Shown here piece after piece: positions 32,643-42,312 of a stretch of 59,054 nt of DNA. A program made the translations under genes and the position numbers. How positions within the stretch are numbered: position 1 is the stretch's first letter; the number at the start of each line of letters is the position of its first letter. The notes beneath the pieces are model-generated. The model searched no databases. It saw only the letters and a program-made list of their open reading frames with translations, and was not told where the DNA came from. The stretch is from assembly GCA_025362495.1 (NCBI GenBank), contig JANYGI010000105.1, positions 1-59,054 on the forward strand, written 5' to 3'. Source of the stretch: Byssovorax sp. GTDB lineage: Bacteria > Myxococcota_A > Polyangia > Polyangiales > Polyangiaceae.

Positions 32643-32676
32643 GCTGTTTCGGGGGAGCCCGACTCGCGGGGTTGGT

Positions 32677-32691
32677 GCGGCAAATTGCCGC
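32677..32691. promoter_or_regulatory. 15-bp palindrome upstream of ctaB
   Basis: GCGGCAA-A-TTGCCGC is a perfect inverted repeat about 110 bp before ctaB. A second 8-bp palindrome, GAAATTTC, lies at 32703-32710. This is a candidate operator for the oxidase assembly genes; the regulator is unknown. Confidence 0.4.
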
Positions 32692-32800
32692 GTTTCGTCG
32701 GGGAAATTTCGCTTCGAGTCTATTGCTCCGGCGGGATGCTTCCACTAGGAGAGGTGCGGCACTCGCGCATGCTGTACTCCCGCCCTCTTCCGGTGATCGT

Positions 32801-33772
32801 TTGAACGCCCGCGTCGACGTGGTTGTTGACGAGGCCGCGCCCTCGAGCGCGCGCAGGGGTCGGCTCCTGCTCGATCTGGTGGCGCTGACCAAGCCGCGCA
32901 TCACGGCCATGGTGGTGATCACCATGCTCGGCGGGATGTGGCTGGCCACGCGATCCGGCGGCCCGCAGCGCCCCGCGCTGACGCTGGCGCTCGCGGTGAT
33001 CGGCACCGTGCTCGTCGTGTCGGGCGCCAGCGCGCTCAACATGTACATCGAGCGCGACTCGGACCGCTTCATGGCGCGCACGAAGAACCGGCCGCTCCCC
33101 TCGGGCCGCATGGCGCCGGAGATCGCGCTGTGGTTCGGGCTCGCCCTCTCGGCGCTCGCGGTCCCGCTGCTCACCTTCGCGGTAAACGCGCTGACGGGGC
33201 TGCTCGCGGCGCTCGCCCTCGTGAGCTACGTGCTCGTGTACACGCCGCTCAAGCGCACGACGACGCTCTCGCTCCCGGTCGGCGCCGTCCCAGGGGCCAT
33301 TCCTCCGCTGCTCGGGTGGACGGCCGTGACGGGCCACCTCGAGTGGCCGGGCGTGCTGCTGTTCAGCGTGATGTTCCTCTGGCAAATCCCGCATTTCCTC
33401 GCGATTGCCACTTTCCGTCGCGAGGACTATCGGCGCGCCGGCCTCAAGATCTTGCCGGTGGAACGCGGCGATCGCGTCACGCGGCATCATATCGTCGCGT
33501 ACCTCGTGGCGCTGGTCGCGGTCACACTGATGCTGGTTCCGTTCGGCGTCGGCGGCTCGTTCTACATGGCCTCGGCAATCGCGCTCGGCGCGGTGTTCCT
33601 CGGCTTCGGCGCGTACGGGCTGCGTCCCTCGGCCGGAGCGCGCTGGGCGCGTGGGCTGTTCATCACCTCGATTCTGTATCTCGTGCTCCTGCTCGGCGCG
33701 CTGGCGCTCAACCCCTCTCCCTCGGGCGCGGCGCACAGCCCCGATTCTCAGGCGTCCCTCGGAGGCCCCTGA
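32801..33772 (+). CDS. ctaB: Protoheme IX farnesyltransferase (haem o synthase)
   Basis: 323 aa if started at the TTG at 32801; a GTG at 32819 is an alternative, and the longer upstream frame is unlikely. This inner-membrane UbiA-family prenyltransferase makes haem o, the precursor of haem a for the oxidase. The Asp-rich motif is the hallmark: NMYIERDSDRFMARTKNRPLP. A second region, YTPLKRTT, and FLWQIPHFLAIATFRREDYRRAG also fit CtaB. About eight to nine transmembrane helices. Its stop overlaps a possible small ORF (CTGA). Needed for the downstream terminal oxidase. Confidence 0.93.
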   Translation: MNARVDVVVDEAAPSSARRGRLLLDLVALTKPRITAMVVITMLGGMWLATRSGGPQRPALTLALAVIGTVLVVSGASALNMYIERDSDRFMARTKNRPLPSGRMAPEIALWFGLALSALAVPLLTFAVNALTGLLAALALVSYVLVYTPLKRTTTLSLPVGAVPGAIPPLLGWTAVTGHLEWPGVLLFSVMFLWQIPHFLAIATFRREDYRRAGLKILPVERGDRVTRHHIVAYLVALVAVTLMLVPFGVGGSFYMASAIALGAVFLGFGAYGLRPSAGARWARGLFITSILYLVLLLGALALNPSPSGAAHSPDSQASLGGP

Positions 33773-33882
33773 CTCTCCCGCCCGAGGCCGAGCCGCTTCG
33801 TCCCCGCTGGGCCTGGGTCGTGTTCGCGGTGCTCGCCCTCGTGATCCCGCTGATCGGCTTCTGGCTCGAACACCGGCGCTGA
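33769..33882 (+). CDS. Possible 37-residue single-membrane-span peptide
   Basis: A CTG at 33769 overlaps the ctaB stop (CTGA). The frame reads LTLPPEAEPLRPRWAWV, followed by a clear transmembrane segment (VFAVLALVIPLIGFWLE) and HRR. Small one-span subunits are common in oxidase loci. The non-standard start and short length keep this tentative; a GTG just before the hydrophobic stretch is another start. Confidence 0.4.
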   Translation: MTLPPEAEPLRPRWAWVVFAVLALVIPLIGFWLEHRR

Positions 33883-33950
33883 TGCCTCACCGCCGTTCCA
33901 CGGCTACCTTGCTTGACAGGCCCGGTGCCGGGGCCTAAGCGTCACCGCCA

Positions 33951-34664
33951 ATGACGACCGAAGCAGCACCCGGGCCGCGCACCGAGACGAACCCCACGGG
34001 GACTCGGGGCGGAGAGCACTGGTTCTCGGCGCTGGTCGGCAAACCCTGGTTCTGGATCCTCGGCATCGCGCTGATCATCGCCGGCCCGCTCGGGCGCGCG
34101 TTCAGCCATCGCATCCCGCCGCCTCCGGAGATGAAGATCCCGCTCCCCGCGTTCGAGCTCACCGACGAGCACGGCCAGCCCTTCGGCACCGAGCAGCTCA
34201 AGGGCCGCGTCTGGGTCGCGGACTTCGTCTTCACGAGCTGCCCCACGGTGTGCCCCAAGCTCACCGCGCGCATGGCCGACATCCAGCACCGATCACGGCA
34301 CCTCGGCGAGGCCTTTCACCTGGTCACGTTCTCCGTCGATCCCGAGAACGACACGCCGGAGCGCCTCGCCGCGTACGCCGCCGCGTACCACGCCAACGGC
34401 GCGCGCTGGTCGTTCCTCACCGGCCCGCTCGACAAGATCGAGAACACCGTCCTCCGAGGCTTCAAGATCGCGATGGGCAAAGAGCCGAGCGAGCCCGGAT
34501 CCACGCTGATGTCGATCTTCCACGGCGAGAACCTCGTGCTCGTGGATCAGGCGGGCAACATCCGCGGCTACTACGAGGCCAACGAGGTCGGCGAGGGCGA
34601 GCTCCTGCGCGTCGCCGGCATCCTCGCCAACATGCCCGACGGCGAAACGACCCGCGCTCCCTGA
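33951..34664 (+). CDS. SCO1/SenC family copper chaperone
   Basis: 237 aa. A single N-terminal membrane anchor (FWILGIALIIAGPLG) precedes a thioredoxin-fold domain. The copper ligands are present: CxxxC in TSCPTVCPK and the conserved His in SIFHGENLVLVD. SCO proteins deliver copper to, or reduce, the CuA site of cytochrome oxidase subunit II in the periplasm. The gene lies upstream of the COX genes, as in many proteobacterial loci. Confidence 0.94.
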   Translation: MTTEAAPGPRTETNPTGTRGGEHWFSALVGKPWFWILGIALIIAGPLGRAFSHRIPPPPEMKIPLPAFELTDEHGQPFGTEQLKGRVWVADFVFTSCPTVCPKLTARMADIQHRSRHLGEAFHLVTFSVDPENDTPERLAAYAAAYHANGARWSFLTGPLDKIENTVLRGFKIAMGKEPSEPGSTLMSIFHGENLVLVDQAGNIRGYYEANEVGEGELLRVAGILANMPDGETTRAP

Positions 34665-34939
34665 AGCGGTTCGCGACCTTGTTCGCGACGCTCTGTCTCT
34701 CGTCGTTCATCTCGCAGACCGCGTCTCTCGCGCGCGCACACGCACGAAGACGCGCACGAGGACGACGACGGACGAGACGGGAGACGACCGACGTACGACG
34801 CGTGGGTGCTGACCGCGCTCTCGCCGGAGCCGCTCTCGGGAGCCGTAGCGTCACGTTCGGGAGCTTGGAACGCGCAGTGGTTGCGCGGGCGCGCTTGCTT
34901 CGCGGATCGACGCGCGCGATCTCCATTCGCCGTTGTTGA
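34661..34939 (+). pseudogene. Possible degraded or frameshifted small secreted protein
   Basis: A CTG overlapping the SCO stop (CTGA) starts a frame reading LKRFATLFATLCLSSFIS and ending ARAHA, which looks like a signal peptide. After that the frame becomes Arg-rich and unlike protein. The neighbouring frame instead reads HEDAHEDDDGRDGRRP and YDAWVLTALSPEPLSG, as if a one-base shift near 34740 had broken a His/Asp-rich periplasmic protein. Very tentative: neither frame has a standard start. Confidence 0.2.
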
Positions 34940-34998
34940 CGCGAGCCTGCGTCCCCCGCTAGAACGGCGCAGAACTCCAGGAAAGGGACACGTCAGGG
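34665..34998 (+). other. 334-bp region before COX3
   Basis: Apart from the tentative broken ORF described at 34661, I see no gene. The stretch is rich in CG/AC repeats (CGCGCGCACACGCACGAAGACGC). It contains GAACTCCAGGAAAGGGA just upstream of the COX3 start at 34999, which provides its ribosome binding site. A promoter for the core oxidase operon is likely here but not resolvable by eye. Confidence 0.3.
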
Positions 34999-35646
34999 AT
35001 GAGCGCGACCGTTGCGGAGCACGGTGAACATCACGGTCCGGCCGAGTGGTCGAAGGACGCGCACTACGGGCGCGCCTCGGCTGGCAAGATCGCGATGTGG
35101 ATCTTCCTGTTGTCGGACGGCTTCTCGTTCGGCGGCCTACTACTCGCGTACGGCATCCTCCGCGCAGGCGCGAAGGCGTGGCCTCCGGACGCGTCGCTGC
35201 ACGAGCCCCACCTCGGCATCAATTTCACCGCCGGGCTGACGTTCCTTCTCATCTGCTCCAGCGTGACGATGGTGCTCGCGCACGACGCCGCGGTGCACGG
35301 TGATCGCAAGAAGATCATTCGCTACCTGGCCCTCACGGTGCTCGGCGGCGTCGGCTTCCTCTGCGGCCAGATGCAGGAGTACTTCGGCCTCTTCCACGGC
35401 GAGGGCCTGATCAAAGAGGGCCTCGTCTTCGGCGGCTCGGCCTACGCCAACACGTTCTTCGTGATCACCAGCTTCCACGGGCTGCACGTGCTCACCGGGA
35501 CGATCTACCTCTTCATCACGCTCATCGCCGCGATTCGCGGCAAATACGACAACGGAAACCACGACGGGATCGAGATCGCGGGCCTCTTCTGGCACTTCGT
35601 CGATCTGGTCTGGATCCTGGTCTTCACGTTCATCTACCTGCTGTAG
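34999..35646 (+). CDS. ctaE: Cytochrome c oxidase subunit III (copy 1)
   Basis: 215 aa. A membrane subunit of the haem-copper oxidase that binds lipids and supports proton uptake by subunit I. Five to seven transmembrane helices are visible. Family signatures: GKIAMWIFLLSDGFSFGGLL, FFVITSFHGLHVLTGTIYL and EIAGLFWHFVDLVWILVF. It is the first core oxidase gene, preceded by a good ribosome binding site. A shorter, divergent second COX3 is encoded at 39059. Confidence 0.95.
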   Translation: MSATVAEHGEHHGPAEWSKDAHYGRASAGKIAMWIFLLSDGFSFGGLLLAYGILRAGAKAWPPDASLHEPHLGINFTAGLTFLLICSSVTMVLAHDAAVHGDRKKIIRYLALTVLGGVGFLCGQMQEYFGLFHGEGLIKEGLVFGGSAYANTFFVITSFHGLHVLTGTIYLFITLIAAIRGKYDNGNHDGIEIAGLFWHFVDLVWILVFTFIYLL

Positions 35647-35654
35647 GCGGAGCC

Positions 35655-36149
35655 ATGGCGGACAAAGGCAAGAAGAGCAAGGGCGCGGGCGAGGCGGCGA
35701 ACAACGCTGCTCCCGTCGCGGACAAGTCACCGGCCAAGGCCGCTCCGGTCGCGCACGCGAAGGAAGCCCTCGCCGTGGCGGCCGCATCGCACGACGAGCA
35801 CGACGGCCACGACCACGCGCCCGGGGGCCACGCTGCCGCCGCGCACGGTCCGGGCGCGGCGCTCGCAGCGCATCCATCGCACGTGAAAGAGTACCTGGTC
35901 ATCTTCGTGATCCTCGCGGTGCTCACGCTGCTCGAGGTCGTGCTCGCGCAGATGGGGATCTCGAAGCACCTCCTCGCGGTCGCGCTCGTCGGCCTCGCGC
36001 TGACGAAGGCCGCCATCGTCGCGCTCTATTACATGCACCTCAAGAGCGAGACGAAGGTCCTCAAGCTGACGGTGGCGATCCCTCTGGCCGCGCCGACGAT
36101 CTACGCCATCGTGCTCATGACCGAGGCCGCGTGGCGGCTCACCCGATGA
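35655..36149 (+). CDS. Cytochrome c oxidase subunit IV with Ala/His-rich extension
   Basis: 164 aa. The first ~80 residues are a Lys/Ala- then His/Asp/Gly-rich tail (HDEHDGHDHAPGGHA), unusual for this small subunit and possibly metal-binding. The rest is a bacterial COX4-type module with three transmembrane helices (EYLVIFVILAVLTLLEVVL, LLAVALVGLALTKAAIVALYYMHLK, LAAPTIYAIVLMTEAAWRL). The YYMHLK motif is typical of this family. Its stop overlaps the next start (ATGA), indicating coupling. Confidence 0.88.
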   Translation: MADKGKKSKGAGEAANNAAPVADKSPAKAAPVAHAKEALAVAAASHDEHDGHDHAPGGHAAAAHGPGAALAAHPSHVKEYLVIFVILAVLTLLEVVLAQMGISKHLLAVALVGLALTKAAIVALYYMHLKSETKVLKLTVAIPLAAPTIYAIVLMTEAAWRLTR

Positions 36150-36421
36150 GGGCGACTTCAGCGCTGAGCGCGGGCTGGGTCGCGTTGTTGACATCGTTGA
36201 CGCCGGCCCTGGCGGCCGCGTGCCCGTACTGCGCCTCGACGCAGAACAGCGGCAACGGGCAGACGATCGCGCTCGGCGCGTTCATCGCGCTCCCGTTCCT
36301 CGTCACCGGGGTGATCCTCAAGGTAATTCAATCCGAGCGCGCCTCGCACGGCGCGCCCGGTACGCACAAAGAGACGTCGAATCAGTCGAGCCAGAGCGGT
36401 TCGCGGAGGATAGCGGAATGA
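36146..36421 (+). CDS. Small CPYC membrane protein between COX4 and COX2
   Basis: 91 aa from the ATG at 36146, which overlaps the COX4 stop (ATGA); its own stop overlaps the COX2 start (ATGA). An N-terminal signal (ALSAGWVALLTSLTPALA) ends at AAA, so the CPYC motif that follows begins the mature chain on the outside. One transmembrane helix (ALGAFIALPFLVTGVILKV) and a short polar tail follow. The tight coupling on both sides makes it a probable oxidase subunit or assembly factor, perhaps acting on the CuA cysteines. Family not recognised. Confidence 0.8.
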   Translation: MRATSALSAGWVALLTSLTPALAAACPYCASTQNSGNGQTIALGAFIALPFLVTGVILKVIQSERASHGAPGTHKETSNQSSQSGSRRIAE

Positions 36422-37266
36422 CTGCACGACGGCTCCTGCGGGCCGTGACGGGCCTCGCGATGGGCGCGGGCGCCCTTCTGACGGCTCCGTTCGCGTTCGC
36501 GGCGGCTCCCCAACCCGGCTCGGGCTACGGCCTGCCTGTCGACGTGTCGGCCGAAGGCCACCGGATCGACTGGCTGATCGGGGTCACCAACGTCCTCACG
36601 GGCATCCTCTTCGTGCTCATGCTCGGGTGGATCCTCTACGCGGCGATTGGCCACAACGAGAAGCGCCACGTCGCCGCTCACGATCACGGCGACAGCCGCA
36701 AATCGATCTTCCTCGTCCTCGGGATCGCCGGCTCGATCTTCTTCGTGGTCGACGGCAACCTGTTCTTCAACTCCACGACCGATCTCGAAGAGGTGTTTCA
36801 CAACTTCGACAAGGTGGAGAAGGACCCGGCCACGATCCGCGTCGAGATCAACGCTCACCAGTGGGCGTGGGACACGCGCAGCGCCGGCCCCGACGGGAAG
36901 TTCAACACCAAGGACGACATCGTCTCGCTCAACGACATCAAGATCCCGGTCGACACCCCGGTGATCTTCGAGGTCGCCTCGACCGACGTCCTCCACGCCT
37001 TCAACCTCCCGAACTTCCGCGCCAAGGTCGACGCCGTCCCCGGCCAGATCAACCGCTTCTGGACCCAGGGCAAGACGGTCGGCGAGTACGAGATCGGCTG
37101 CGCTCAGCACTGCGGGACGAACCACTACAAGATGAAGGGTGTAATCACCGTGCTCTCGAAGGAAGACTACGCGCGCTGGGCCAAAGAGGCCTCGGAGAAC
37201 TCGGCGCGGCTCTTTGACGAGAACGACAAGGACGCCCACTGGGGCTGGGACTGGAAGGGCAACTGA
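36418..37266 (+). CDS. ctaC: Cytochrome c oxidase subunit II
   Basis: 282 aa from the ATG at 36418. The signal peptide ends AFAAAP; two transmembrane helices and a periplasmic cupredoxin domain follow. CuA ligands are all seen: His in STDVLHAFNLP, and CAQHCGTNHYKM with the two Cys, His and Met. In this motif the residue between the cysteines that is Glu in mitochondrial-type enzymes is Gln. The electron-entry aromatic region reads NAHQWAWDTR. An insert of the form DGKFNTKDDIVSLNDI precedes the domain core. No fused cytochrome c; a separate cytochrome is encoded at 39697. Confidence 0.96.
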   Translation: MTARRLLRAVTGLAMGAGALLTAPFAFAAAPQPGSGYGLPVDVSAEGHRIDWLIGVTNVLTGILFVLMLGWILYAAIGHNEKRHVAAHDHGDSRKSIFLVLGIAGSIFFVVDGNLFFNSTTDLEEVFHNFDKVEKDPATIRVEINAHQWAWDTRSAGPDGKFNTKDDIVSLNDIKIPVDTPVIFEVASTDVLHAFNLPNFRAKVDAVPGQINRFWTQGKTVGEYEIGCAQHCGTNHYKMKGVITVLSKEDYARWAKEASENSARLFDENDKDAHWGWDWKGN

Positions 37267-37269
37267 GCC

Positions 37270-39054
37270 ATGGAACAACACATCCATCCCGAGCCCAAAG
37301 CCTTCATCTGGAAGTACGTCTTCTCGATTGACCACAAGGTCATCGCGAAGCAGTTCCTCTGGACGGGGCTGATGTTCCTCGCCCTCGGCGGCACGCTGGC
37401 GATGATGATCCGCTGGCAGTGGGCCTACCCGAAGACGGCGGTCCCGGTCGTCGGCGCTCTGTTCCTCTCCCACACGGGCGGGGCGATCACGCCGCCGACG
37501 TACACCAGCATCTTCACGATGCACGGCCTGATCATGATCTTCTGGGCGATCACGCCCATCCTGATCGGCGCGTTCGGCAACTTCTGCATCCCGCTGATGA
37601 TCGGCGCTCGGGACATGGCGTTCCCGAAGCTGAATATGTACTCGTACTGGATGTTCTTCGCCTCGAGCGTCCTCGTGATCCTCTCGTTCACGTCGCAGCT
37701 CGGCGCTGCCTCGGCCGGGTGGACCACGTATCCGCCGCTGTCGACGAACGTGGGCGCCCCGGGCTGGGGACAGACGTACATGGCGCTCGCCATCTTCGCG
37801 ACCGGCGTGTCGACGATCATGGGCGGCATCAACTACATCGTCACCGTCATCCGCTATCGCGCGCCGGGGATGACCTGGTTCCGCCTGCCGCTGACGATCT
37901 GGGGAATGTGGCTCACGGCGATCCTCAACGTGCTCTTCGTCCCCGTGCTCGGCTCTGCGGCGCTCCTGCTCTCCCTCGACCGTCTCGCTGGCACCCACTT
38001 TTTCGTGGCAGGCGCGGCTGTCGGGATCCAGGGCGGCGATCCGATGCTGTTCCAGCACCTGTTCTGGATCTTCGGGCACCCCGAGGTTTACATCCTGATC
38101 CTGCCCGTCTGGGGCATCGTCGGTGACATCCTCTCGTTCTTCTCGCGCAAACCGGCCTTCTGGTACAAGGGCTCCGTCTTCGCGATGATCGCGGTCACGG
38201 TCCTCTCGGCGGTCGTCTACGGCCACCACATGTACCAGACCGGCATGGCGCCGCTCCTCGGCCTCGGCTTCGAGATGCTGACCCTCGCGATCAGCGTCCC
38301 CGCCGTCGTGCTCTTCGTGAACTGGCTCAACACCATCTGGAAGGGCTCGCTCCGTCTGGAAGTGCCGATGCTGTTCGCGCTCGGCATGGTGTTCGTCTTC
38401 GGCGCCGGCGGCCTGACTGGCCTCCTCCTCGGGACGATCTCCACGGACATCTACCTCCACGACACGATGTACGTCGTCGGTCACTTCCACCTGACGATGG
38501 CCGCCGCTTCGTTCCTCGGGAGCTTCTCGGCGCTCTACTTCTGGTTCCCCAAGATGTACGGGAAGCAGATGGACCAGAACCTCGGCAAGGTGCACTTCTG
38601 GGGCTCGGTCGTCTTCATCACGCTGGTGTTCGGCGGACAGCTGGTCGCCGGCTACTCGGGGCAGCATCGCCGCCTCTTCGAGCCTTACCAGTACACGTAC
38701 ATCCGGCACCTCGCGCCGCTCAACCGCTGGACGAGCTTCGCGGCCTTCGCCCTCGGCGCGACCCAGCTCATCTTCGTCGTCAACTTCATCAAGAGCATCT
38801 TGATGGGGAAGAAGGCCGAGCAGAACCCCTGGCACGTCTCGACCCTGGAGTGGACGCACTGCGCCTCTCCGCCCATCTATCACAACTTCGACATCGTCCC
38901 GACGGTCGTGCGCGGCGCGCACGAGTACGCGGATCCGGCGGTGAAGAAGAAGTTTGGTCGCGACTACCTCGATCAGGTGGAGCCGGGCCTCAGCGCCGTG
39001 GACGAGGACTCCTCGGCCGGGATGCCCGAGCCCGAGGCCATCGGCGCCGAGTAG
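37270..39054 (+). CDS. ctaD: Cytochrome c oxidase subunit I
   Basis: 594 aa with 12+ helices. The catalytic subunit reduces O2 to water. Low-spin haem His in FTMHGLIMIF; CuB and cross-linked Tyr/His in FGHPEVYILILP; CuB pair in YGHHMY; high-spin haem His in VGHFHLTMA. The D-channel is preserved: GARDMAFPKLN and the Glu in GHPEVY. In the K-channel helix, the position holding Lys in the usual VPTGIK motif is Leu here (VPAVVLFV, 38296-38319), and the preceding Thr is Ala. A Glu occurs one turn or more earlier (GFEML). A C-terminal tail of ~70 residues is cytosolic or peripheral. Confidence 0.97.
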   Translation: MEQHIHPEPKAFIWKYVFSIDHKVIAKQFLWTGLMFLALGGTLAMMIRWQWAYPKTAVPVVGALFLSHTGGAITPPTYTSIFTMHGLIMIFWAITPILIGAFGNFCIPLMIGARDMAFPKLNMYSYWMFFASSVLVILSFTSQLGAASAGWTTYPPLSTNVGAPGWGQTYMALAIFATGVSTIMGGINYIVTVIRYRAPGMTWFRLPLTIWGMWLTAILNVLFVPVLGSAALLLSLDRLAGTHFFVAGAAVGIQGGDPMLFQHLFWIFGHPEVYILILPVWGIVGDILSFFSRKPAFWYKGSVFAMIAVTVLSAVVYGHHMYQTGMAPLLGLGFEMLTLAISVPAVVLFVNWLNTIWKGSLRLEVPMLFALGMVFVFGAGGLTGLLLGTISTDIYLHDTMYVVGHFHLTMAAASFLGSFSALYFWFPKMYGKQMDQNLGKVHFWGSVVFITLVFGGQLVAGYSGQHRRLFEPYQYTYIRHLAPLNRWTSFAAFALGATQLIFVVNFIKSILMGKKAEQNPWHVSTLEWTHCASPPIYHNFDIVPTVVRGAHEYADPAVKKKFGRDYLDQVEPGLSAVDEDSSAGMPEPEAIGAE

Positions 39055-39058
39055 CCCC

Positions 39059-39643
39059 ATGGGAGACGTCGTCGAGCTCCGCCCCCGGGCACGCGAGGAT
39101 TTCACCTCGGTGATCGGGATGATGATCGCCCTCGGTGCCTGGGCGATGATGTTTGGCGCGCTCTTCTTCATGTACGCCGGGATGCGCTCCCACGCGCTGA
39201 TGTGGCCGCCTCCCGGCGTCCCTCGTCTCCCGATCGGTCTCCCCGCCCTGAACACCGCGGTGCTGCTCGCCTCGAGCGGCGCTTTCTCTCTGGGTCTCCG
39301 CTCGCTCCGCAAGGGCGAGCGGCGCGCCCTCTCGGCCTGGCTCGCCGCCGCGGCGGCGCTCGGCACCACGTTCCTCGCCCTCCAGGTCGTGGTGTGGCGC
39401 GACGTCTGGGCCTCCGGGCTCCAGCCCTCGACCGGAGCGTACGGGTCGGTGTTTTACGGCCTCACGGCGCTCCACGCGGTCCACGTCGCCGCGGGGATCC
39501 TGGTGATCCTGCTCGTCCTCGTGCGGTCGCTCCTCGGGAAATACACCGAGCACAACGTGATGCCAGTCCGCCTCCCGGGCATGTTCTGGCACTTCGTCGA
39601 CGCTGTCTGGGTATTGATGTTCGTTTCGCTGTACCTCCTCTGA
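39059..39643 (+). CDS. Cytochrome c oxidase subunit III-like (copy 2)
   Basis: 194 aa, starting 4 bp after the COX1 stop, so co-translated with it. Shares the COX3 signatures GSVFYGLTALHAVHVAAGI and PGMFWHFVDAVWVLMFVSLYLL with the copy at 34999, and has about five transmembrane helices. The two differ in the N-terminal half, and this one lacks the long polar start. Either both subunits occupy the complex (an expanded subunit III) or one replaces the other under some condition; this cannot be decided from sequence. Confidence 0.92.
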   Translation: MGDVVELRPRAREDFTSVIGMMIALGAWAMMFGALFFMYAGMRSHALMWPPPGVPRLPIGLPALNTAVLLASSGAFSLGLRSLRKGERRALSAWLAAAAALGTTFLALQVVVWRDVWASGLQPSTGAYGSVFYGLTALHAVHVAAGILVILLVLVRSLLGKYTEHNVMPVRLPGMFWHFVDAVWVLMFVSLYLL

Positions 39644-39696
39644 TTCACGCAGGGGCCGCTCGCGGCCTCGCCATGGACCAACGGATAGAGCCCTCG

Positions 39697-40908
39697 ATGA
39701 ACCGCTCCTTCAAATCGATTCGCAGCGCGCGCAGCCTCGCGAGCCTGGCCAGCGCGGCCAATCTGGCTCTCACCGTCGTCGCCGGGGCCGCAGCGCTGCT
39801 CGCCGGCGCGTGCGCGCCCGACAAGATGCCTTTTCCCGAAGGGGAGACGCACACGTTCGCGACGCTGAACGAGGACGGGTCGGCCAAGCCGGACGGCCTC
39901 GCGGTCTCGGCCCACGATCTCAACCTCGGGTATCAGTCGTACACGCGCTACTGCTACGCGTGTCACGGCGTGAAGGGCGATGGACACGGCCCGGCCTCGT
40001 ACGGCCTGCGCCCGCCGCCGCGCAACTTCACCCTCGGCATCTTCAAGTTCGCGCGCCTCCGCTCCAGCGACGAGCTGCCGAACGACGCCGACCTGAAGTA
40101 CATCGTCAAGAATGGCCTCCACGGCTCGGCGATGCTGGCGTGGGACATACCCGACGAGGAGCTCGGTCGCGTCCTCAACTACATCAAGACCTTCGCCCCG
40201 CAGAAGTGGGAGAAGACCAAGAAGAACGGCGATCACGTCAAGACGCTCGAGGTCTTCGAGGCTCCCGCCGATCCCTGGGCCAGCAAGGAGGTCGAGGCCA
40301 TCGCCCGCGGTCAGGAGCTCTACCACCTCAAGGCCGAGTGCCTGAACTGCCACCCTTCGTACCTGGGCAAGGAAGACTTGTTCAAGCTCTCGACGGTGGC
40401 GGCGAAGCGCGAGCCCGACACCTTCAAGGCCATCGGCGGCTTCCGCGACGATCCCCATGGCTCGGTCGCCAAGGACTCGGCCGAGTACGCCGTTCGCCTG
40501 CTCCCGCCCGACTTCACCTTCAACCAGGTGCGGTCGATCCACCCGGGCTCGGAGATCAACGATCTCTTCCGCCTGATCTCGTTCGGCGTGTACCCGATCA
40601 TGCCGGCCTGGAAGGGATCGCTCGAAGACAAGGACATCTGGGCGATTGCCCACTATGTCAAATCGCTCATCGATCTCCGCTCCAACCCGGCCGCCGCCGC
40701 GAAGCTGAAGGACGGGTTCGAGGCGCAGAAGGGCTTCGAGATCCCGAAGGCGCCCGAGCCGGCGCCGGTCGTCGACGCGACGCCGACGGACACGGCGCCC
40801 GCCGATCCGAAGGCCACCGGCGCCAGGAAGGACGATCCGAAGGCCGTCGATCCGAAGGCCAAGGATCCGAAGACCAGCGGCGTGAAGAAGGCTCCCGTCA
40901 CGCAGTAG
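39697..40908 (+). CDS. Di-haem c-type cytochrome lipoprotein
   Basis: 403 aa from the ATG at 39697, preceded by GGATAGAG; an ATG at 39673 is in frame but lacks a ribosome binding site. The signal peptide ends LLAGAC, so the protein is probably lipid-anchored. Two CxxCH sites bind haem c: YCYACHGVKGDGHGPAS (~residue 90) and ECLNCHPSYLG (~residue 222). A Met/His sixth ligand for each can be proposed but not fixed. The C-terminal tail is Lys/Asp/Pro-rich. Its place at the end of the oxidase operon suggests it donates electrons to CuA. Confidence 0.93.
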   Translation: MNRSFKSIRSARSLASLASAANLALTVVAGAAALLAGACAPDKMPFPEGETHTFATLNEDGSAKPDGLAVSAHDLNLGYQSYTRYCYACHGVKGDGHGPASYGLRPPPRNFTLGIFKFARLRSSDELPNDADLKYIVKNGLHGSAMLAWDIPDEELGRVLNYIKTFAPQKWEKTKKNGDHVKTLEVFEAPADPWASKEVEAIARGQELYHLKAECLNCHPSYLGKEDLFKLSTVAAKREPDTFKAIGGFRDDPHGSVAKDSAEYAVRLLPPDFTFNQVRSIHPGSEINDLFRLISFGVYPIMPAWKGSLEDKDIWAIAHYVKSLIDLRSNPAAAAKLKDGFEAQKGFEIPKAPEPAPVVDATPTDTAPADPKATGARKDDPKAVDPKAKDPKTSGVKKAPVTQ

Positions 40909-41115: not shown

Positions 41116-42312
41116 ATGAGATCAATACGCTCGCTTCGACTCGCGACACTGGCAATCTCGCTGACTGGCATTCTTGGCGCGTCGTGCTCTCCCGAGCTCC
41201 CGGAGTCCACCGCGCGCTCGCAGATGGAGCACCGGCTCCAGGGACCGCGCCCTCACGCGCTCTGTGGCTGGCTCTACGAGCACCCCGACGACGCCGACAC
41301 CGAGGTCGCTTACGACACCTTCGCCGCTCACGCCGACGACTTCGACGCCGTTCACCCGAAGTGGTGGCGCGTCGGCTCGCCGACCACGATCGTCAACCAC
41401 GTGCGGGGCACGAGTACGCCGTATCGCGGCTTCCACGACCGACGCGTGCTCGATCACACCACGCCCGGCGGGGCCCACACCCGGCTGATTCCCCTCGTCG
41501 CGGCGACGGCGCCCGGCGACGCGGCCTTCGTTCACCGGATGATCAACGATCCCGATCTCCGCGCCGCGCACGTGGCCGCGCTCACCGACGTCGCCGTCGA
41601 CAACGGCTATGATGGCCTCGATCTCGACTACGAGCACCTCGCCGCGGCCATGGAGAGCACCCCGCCTCACGTGTCGATGGCCCACGAGCGCGCCGCGATG
41701 TCGGCCTTCATCGCCGCCGTCGCCGACGCGCTCCACGCCCACGGCAAAGAGCTCTCGCTCGCCATCCCCGTCAACACCTCGGGCAGCTCCGGCTTCGATC
41801 TCGAGGCCATCTCGGCGGCCGCCGACGAGATCCACGTGATGGGCTACGACTTCCACTACGAGGGCGGCGATCACCCGGGGCCGACTGCCCCGCTCGGCTG
41901 GCTCCAGGGCTTCATCGATCACGTCGCGTCGATGGATGGCGGACAGCGCGCCTCCCGCTTCATCCTCGGCCTCCCCAACTACGGCAACTACGGCGCTCCC
42001 GGCGGCGAGGTCCTTGGCTGTGAGCCGCTCTCTCACTGCTACGATCTCTTCGACGGTGGCTATGCCACCACCACCGACGAGCTCGAGCGCCACGGCCAGG
42101 GAGACGTCGATCCCGGCCGCTCCCCCAACGTGGCCCTGCGCGGCGGCGAGCACCTCTATTTCGAGGACCTCGCGTCGCTCGAAGAGAAGGTCGCGGCCGC
42201 GAAGGCAGGTGGCTTTGGCGGGATCAGCTACTGGGGTATCGGCGGCGAGCCGACGGTGCCGGGGCCGCGCACGTTCTTCCAGATGGTGCGGAGTCACTTC
42301 CCGCGCCCGTGA
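41116..42312 (+). CDS. GH18 chitinase-like lipoprotein
   Basis: 398 aa. The signal peptide ends in a lipobox-like LGASCS, implying lipid anchoring outside the cytoplasm. The body is a TIM-barrel of glycoside hydrolase family 18 type: the catalytic DxxDxE motif is intact as DGLDLDYEHL, preceded by an SGG-equivalent strand (RLIPLVAATAPG). IHVMGYDFHYEG and ISYWGIGGEP match later barrel strands. Family members cleave chitin or peptidoglycan-like glycans or act as lectins; the substrate is not predictable. The 3' end lies 7 bp from the convergent DUF1501 remnant. Confidence 0.85.
   Translation: MRSIRSLRLATLAISLTGILGASCSPELPESTARSQMEHRLQGPRPHALCGWLYEHPDDADTEVAYDTFAAHADDFDAVHPKWWRVGSPTTIVNHVRGTSTPYRGFHDRRVLDHTTPGGAHTRLIPLVAATAPGDAAFVHRMINDPDLRAAHVAALTDVAVDNGYDGLDLDYEHLAAAMESTPPHVSMAHERAAMSAFIAAVADALHAHGKELSLAIPVNTSGSSGFDLEAISAAADEIHVMGYDFHYEGGDHPGPTAPLGWLQGFIDHVASMDGGQRASRFILGLPNYGNYGAPGGEVLGCEPLSHCYDLFDGGYATTTDELERHGQGDVDPGRSPNVALRGGEHLYFEDLASLEEKVAAAKAGGFGGISYWGIGGEPTVPGPRTFFQMVRSHFPRP

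Follow-up and report, generated by a model that had tools for sequence, protein, structure and literature searches.

A family-A cytochrome c oxidase of Byssovorax sp. without the K-channel residues, and a serine and an aspartate that accompany their loss

Reduction of the active site in family-A oxidases is considered to depend strictly on the K-channel. In the accessible part of PMC3084760 this channel serves as a mark of type A, and the four oxidases out of 1216 that were found there without channel residues were all B-like. The 59,054-nt stretch of a Byssovorax sp. contig analysed here (hereafter, the window) encodes a cytochrome c oxidase in which a first-pass annotation had noticed that the K-channel Lys and Thr were replaced while the D-channel was kept, and for which it had supposed a different proton route. 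Thus, two questions arise: is the K-channel truly gone from this oxidase, and what might then bring protons to its active site? The oxidase genes form a cluster on the + strand (32672-40908), running from a UbiA-type prenyltransferase through a protein with two CxxCH motifs, as delineated by open reading frames and Pfam profiles:

32672..33772, + strand: UbiA-family prenyltransferase (PF01040), by its position heme O synthase (CtaB)
33951..34664, + strand: SCO1/SenC copper chaperone (PF02630)
34999..35646, + strand: COX3 (PF00510)
35655..36149, + strand: COX4-like protein (PF03626)
36418..37266, + strand: COX2 (CoxB-like), with the CuA motif CAQHCGTNHYKM and without the K-entrance Glu
37270..39054, + strand: COX1 (CtaD-like), 594 aa, K-channel residues absent
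39061..39643, + strand: second COX3-like membrane protein, with a C-terminal FWHFVD.VW.L like that of COX3, as judged by eye; no Pfam match
39675..40908, + strand: protein with two CxxCH motifs (CYACH, CLNCH), a probable diheme cytochrome c; no Pfam match

The COX1 frame, which runs from ATG to TAG and encodes GHHMYQTGMAPLLGLGFEMLTLAISVPAVVLFVNW, scored 426 bits against PF00115 and 544 bits against the NCBIfam CtaD model, the latter lying under the model cut-off of 671. All six His ligands and the helix VI cross-link Tyr of family A are present. An AlphaFold model, built from 17 rows (aligned COX1 sequences) and having a mean pLDDT of 73 with weak loops, gave a predicted-structure match to Rhodobacter sphaeroides COX1 at Z 41 and 2.5 Å over 501 residues; solved A-type COX1 structures scored from Z 41 to 35 among the best 50 entries listed. 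In a tree built without a B or C outgroup, the window COX1 is placed inside a 51-row clade holding Lys-type A1 rows. Overall, we conclude that the window oxidase is a family-A (A1-like) cytochrome c oxidase. With the A1-type aa3 enzymes of Paracoccus, Rhodobacter and mitochondria it shares the fold, the ligands, the cross-link Tyr, the D-channel with its Glu and a CuA-bearing subunit II; unlike them, it has neither the K-channel Lys, Thr and Ser nor the entrance Glu, while Ser342 of COX1 and Asp112 of COX2, hereafter Asp112(II), are new. The residues discussed below are the following, placed by alignment unless stated otherwise:

36751..36753, + strand: Asp112(II), intramembrane Asp of COX2 helix 2
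37612..37614, + strand: Asp115, D-channel entrance Asp (D124/D132)
38083..38085, + strand: Glu272, end of the D-channel (E278/E286)
38089..38091, + strand: Tyr274, cross-link Tyr (Y280/Y288)
38122..38124, + strand: Gly285, at the K-channel Ser position (S291/S299)
38272..38274, + strand: Glu335, Glu of GFEML
38293..38295, + strand: Ser342 (Rhodobacter A356), found by counting six back from the Lys position
38302..38304, + strand: Ala345, at the K-channel Thr position (T351/T359)
38311..38313, + strand: Leu348, at the K-channel Lys position (Paracoccus K354, Rhodobacter K362)

All three K-channel residues that Table 2 of PMC3084760 gives for family A (K354, T351 and S291 in Paracoccus numbers, from the part of the paper at hand) are missing from the window COX1, being replaced by Leu348, Ala345 and Gly285. 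The first two exchanges, located in VPAVVL (38296-38313), are those proposed at first pass, and they were borne out by a 141-row alignment that puts the Lys column on Leu348; the loss of the Ser had been overlooked, as had that of the K-entrance Glu of COX2, where a Ser occupies the alignment column. The helix had been aligned without gaps; in the alignment with mycobacterial PDB chains, a gap of one residue occurs twice, each time in the loop preceding the helix. Furthermore, the modelled helix 329-356 has no Lys at all, so that no shift of the alignment would restore the K-channel Lys. None of the 30 rows of the window's clade keeps this Lys, so its loss is not a matter of chance. It could still be supposed that the Lys lies elsewhere through misalignment, or that the gene has decayed and is non-functional; given the Lys-free modelled helix, the intact frame and the conservation of every ligand across K-less rows, we consider this very improbable. 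At the sequence level, Leu348, Ala345, Gly285 and the missing entrance Glu show that the K-channel of the window oxidase has been dismantled.

The COX1 rows came from 39 relatives, 289 genomes of the class, 188 genomes of the phylum (group C query, see below), plasmids and named genomes, the last giving at least 80 loci; the genome searches are samples read among the matches listed, and the distribution that they outline is incomplete. Three rows were removed as copies (L003, L071 and L077). The 141-row set leaves out matches below 30% identity or 450 aligned residues (including L004, L005 and the partial L064 and L065), and the 164-row set those below 26% or 400. Among at least 164 usable rows, 115 carry Lys, 46 carry Leu, Met, Phe, Ala or Thr (the K-less rows), two carry Gln and one Tyr. 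The 45 K-less rows of the 141-row set fall into three groups. Group A (30 rows) includes the window, other Polyangia, Corallococcus L073 and the Bacteriovoracaceae and Halobacteriovorax rows L069, L070, L072 and L076; group B (12 rows) is a second Polyangia clade with HHQFVAGIDPR; group C (three beta/gamma-proteobacterial rows) comprises Methylophilus L090, Proteobacteria L126 and the gamma symbiont L107. When 274 genomes from the same class as L090 were searched, at least 29 further loci came to light; among the matches listed, L185 and L190 are K-less and the other 27 keep Lys. Two genomes (G129 and G088) have two COX1 copies of the K-less clade each, again among the matches listed.

The cross-link Tyr is present in all 141 aligned rows, and in every one of the 45 K-less rows the heme and CuB histidines and both propionate arginines are unchanged as well. 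Since metal ligands, arginines and Tyr are all intact, we take the K-less oxidases to be working oxidases. As for the D-channel, its reported retention holds for the window COX1, which has D115, N104, N122, S125, N188 and E272 (of GHPEV), with Thr182 in place of Ser193 and Phe in place of Tyr35 as departures; D-channel landmarks are likewise retained in 42 of the 45 K-less rows. It does not hold for three rows of the window's clade, L058, L062 and L073, that have lost the D-channel Asp. At the position of window Asp115 these rows carry Asn, Asn and Gln, and the Asn below it (Asn131, window Asn122) is Gly, Ser and Ser, respectively. With the K-channel missing and the D-channel and ligands kept, either the Tyr receives its protons by some other path during the reductive phase, or this phase no longer needs a K-channel. 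According to the accessible part of PMC12901375, the K319M exchange (bovine numbers) stops the reduction of heme a3 in ordinary family-A oxidases, whereas the steps served by the D-channel still proceed; this implies that K-less oxidases need some replacement.

The replacement hinted at in the first-pass annotation was Glu335. However, this residue is found in only 7 of the 30 clade rows; 11 others have another Glu (PAE, position 346) and 12 have neither, so Glu335 was rejected as a general substitute. Of all COX1 columns, the cleanest marker of the K-less state is Ser342, which occurs in 45/45 K-less rows versus 1/96 others in the 141-row set, and in 46/46 versus 3/115 Lys rows in the 164-row set. 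Ser at this position together with Lys was seen in six rows (L138, L165, L166, L189, L197 and L206), the last three belonging to the 27 gammaproteobacterial Lys-bearing sisters. Because these three carry both residues, Ser at position 342 can apparently precede the loss of Lys. The Gln or Tyr variants from Caballeronia (L167), Roseomonas (L169) and Halobaculum (L170) have Ala at this site and no COX2 Asp, which suggests that there are other ways of altering the K-channel.

The second residue common to all K-less groups is the Asp of COX2 helix 2; like Ser342, it had no place in the first-pass annotation. Every K-less row whose COX2 could be read (44/44) has it, as do the later-found L190 and L185 (46/46 in all), the COX2 of K-less L052 and L057 not having been found. 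No acid lies 5 to 17 residues past the entrance Glu in any of the 97 usable Lys-type COX2s, and the Asp is absent from all 27 gammaproteobacterial Lys-type sisters. The Asp stands 15 residues past the entrance position in those rows where the motif anchors it, namely most of group B together with L090, L126, L185 and L190; in L107 the spacing, read by eye, is 14. The 97 usable sequences derive from 105 Lys-type picks, of which six had no readable stretch and two were set aside: L165, having no proper COX2 stretch, and L134, for which an incorrect frame had been taken and whose true COX2 reads LEILWTVIPVIILAVIAVPT and has no acid. Four of 88 Lys-type rows had been picked out by a simpler count of the motif, namely three off-site motif matches and one Lys at 17 (L035), with no helix acid among them. 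The entrance column itself holds Glu in all but one of the usable Lys-type rows (96 of 97) and an acid in 11 of the 44 K-less rows (Glu in six, Asp in five; placement in group A is unsure); the reading that the entrance Glu is always lost from K-less rows was corrected for this reason.

How many times did this set arise? Group C is nested among Lys-type relatives, and in an AU test on 50 hand-chosen rows a single clade of A, B and C was rejected (dlnL 276, p-AU 3.9e-5), which means at least two origins. Uniting A and B costs 7.5 log-likelihood units (p 0.22) and was not rejected; thus, these two groups may share one loss of Lys. Four changes were counted on the 50-row set and three in another count, L107 being not firmly joined to the other group C rows on the 50-row set and joined to them (96) in the 141-row tree. 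The K-less set thus has two origins at the least, and perhaps three or four. The comparative evidence shows that Ser342 and Asp112(II) were gained along with the K-channel loss in at least two lineages, although the independent pairs on supported branches number two, too few for a sign test.

Where would these two residues lie? According to the accessible part of PMC9687966, Rhodobacter A356, the counterpart of Ser342, marks one corner of the K-channel volume used in simulations, and two points flanking E101(II) are 23.4 and 19.1 Å from Tyr288. By arithmetic rather than from a structure, 15 residues past E101 at 1.5 Å each come to ~22 Å, so Asp112(II) is expected at about the level of the cross-link Tyr in the membrane, and 15 turns of 100 degrees leave it 60 degrees off, roughly on the E101 face of the helix. 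By the same counting, it is closer to the periplasmic than to the cytoplasmic end of helix 2.

Keeping this in mind, we tentatively favour, with slightly less than even confidence, the scenario in which the classical K-channel was dismantled and Ser342 and Asp112(II) became part of a substitute route near the interface of subunits I and II. Ser342 (helix VIII) would belong to the wall of the old K-channel, directly below the cross-link Tyr, and Asp112(II) would lie at the same membrane depth, their closeness being counted along the helices rather than measured. Most likely, the two would assume part of the work of the K-channel: the proton for active-site reduction would pass from Asp112(II) to Ser342 and, with water, to Tyr274, while the D-channel would continue to serve the oxidative phase and pumping, as its conserved residues suggest. 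The substitute path is favoured because a hydroxyl in the old channel wall and a subunit II acid at the same depth were gained jointly. Hence, the idea of a different proton route outlived its proposed Glu, and the repeated joint appearance of the Ser and the Asp makes it more likely. Several points stand against it: the Ser is not specific, being found in six Lys-type rows; L167, L169 and L170 do without both residues; the independent pairs are two; and no conserved continuous polar chain leads from the cytoplasm to Asp112(II), group C having only hydrophobic residues below the Asp.

This last point, together with the D-channel landmarks in 42 of 45 K-less rows, would suit a scenario in which all protons use the D-channel alone, and a retuned active site can accept its first electron without the K-channel. 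Ser342 and Asp112(II) would then be fillers with a structural role, such as polar packing in place of the lost Lys and Thr or for the heme a3 tail. We regard this as possible but rather unlikely, as a deeply buried acid within a membrane helix, gained at least twice, would be a costly filler, and in L058, L062 and L073 no entrance acid would be left. The latter three rows, in which the landmark acid seems to be gone from both classical entrances, still carry the subunit II Asp and Ser342, which makes them the sharpest test of the substitute route. It is tempting to suppose that a path at the I/II interface, through the COX2 helix 2 Asp and the COX1 helix VIII Ser, is a further proton input that took the place of the K-channel on two or more occasions and may serve in these three rows without either classical entrance acid; we hold this broader idea to be doubtful.

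The position of Asp112(II), by counting in the periplasmic half of helix 2, and the Gly or Asn that follows it in the window's group, also bring to mind the entry of protons from the periplasmic side, with the reductive-phase chemistry partly non-electrogenic. Cytochrome c-dependent NO reductases work in this way, taking up periplasmic-side protons in non-electrogenic chemistry. Such entry would be costly in energy, nothing speaks for it directly, and the D-channel with its Glu is kept; we find it improbable.

Might the loss of fast proton delivery simply be tolerated in a slow or special-purpose oxidase (for oxygen scavenging or sensing) while other oxidases perform bulk respiration? The source genome has five PF00115 genes including the window COX1, and the two best aligned of the other four (L001 and L002) are A2-like (YSHPAVY) and keep the K-channel Lys. 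However, the draft genome of group A row L069 shows one PF00115 gene, a K-less one, which would be its sole heme-copper oxidase, and conservation over the 30 rows is strong; this explanation is therefore quite unlikely in our opinion.

Among known systems, B-type (ba3) oxidases resemble the window enzyme in having no Lys at the K position. However, they have no D-channel and use Thr, Ser and Tyr in the K path (PMC3084760, same part), whereas the window oxidase keeps the D-channel and has Ala, Leu and Gly in that path; an alternative K-channel of the B type was rejected on these grounds. In archaeal family A, the canonical K-channel was also lost: the available part of PMC8239418 describes K-channel variants there, one hypothesis implying seven losses. 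Unlike the window, the archaeal variant among our rows (Halobaculum L170, Tyr) is without Ser342 and the COX2 Asp. CoxMNOP, or COX operon type a-III, with two COX3-like genes, is among the nearest relatives in the 51-row clade. Near COX1 and COX2, the window has COX3 at 34999 and a putative second COX3-like gene, the Pfam-negative frame at 39061, in a gene order unlike that of L161 and L162. However, all seven CoxN-type rows (L037, L038 and L160-L164) keep Lys, unlike the window COX1, and a simple loss of Lys from a Lys-bearing rhizobial CoxN was rejected. The accessible parts of PMC4013037, PMC6431628 and PMC5492768, which treat operon types and CoxMNOP, describe no K-channel loss. Thus, loss of the K-channel by itself has already been published for family A, while the Ser/Asp set appears to be undescribed, no account of it having been found in a search that covered mainly open-access papers. 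We believe that natural enzymes which have the D-channel but lack the K-channel altogether, and in which separate lineages show two identical replacements, make the debate on the purpose of the K-channel directly testable, Ser342(I) and Asp112(II) being the two residues to begin with.

Finally, we would like to comment on some minor features. Near the active site, group A has Trp281, Tyr317, Gly404 and Asn220 as group-specific residues; the changes from Phe/Met to Trp281 and from Trp to Tyr317 are found in all 30 rows, and Trp281 recurs in two of the three group C rows. In COX2, the usual Glu of the CuA motif CxExC, which we take to be an Mg ligand, is Gln in 24 of the 28 group A motifs read, and is kept in four Bacteriovoracaceae/Halobacteriovorax rows and in all rows of groups B and C. 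Directly downstream of the oxidase cluster, the window encodes a glycosyl hydrolase family 18 protein (41116-42312).
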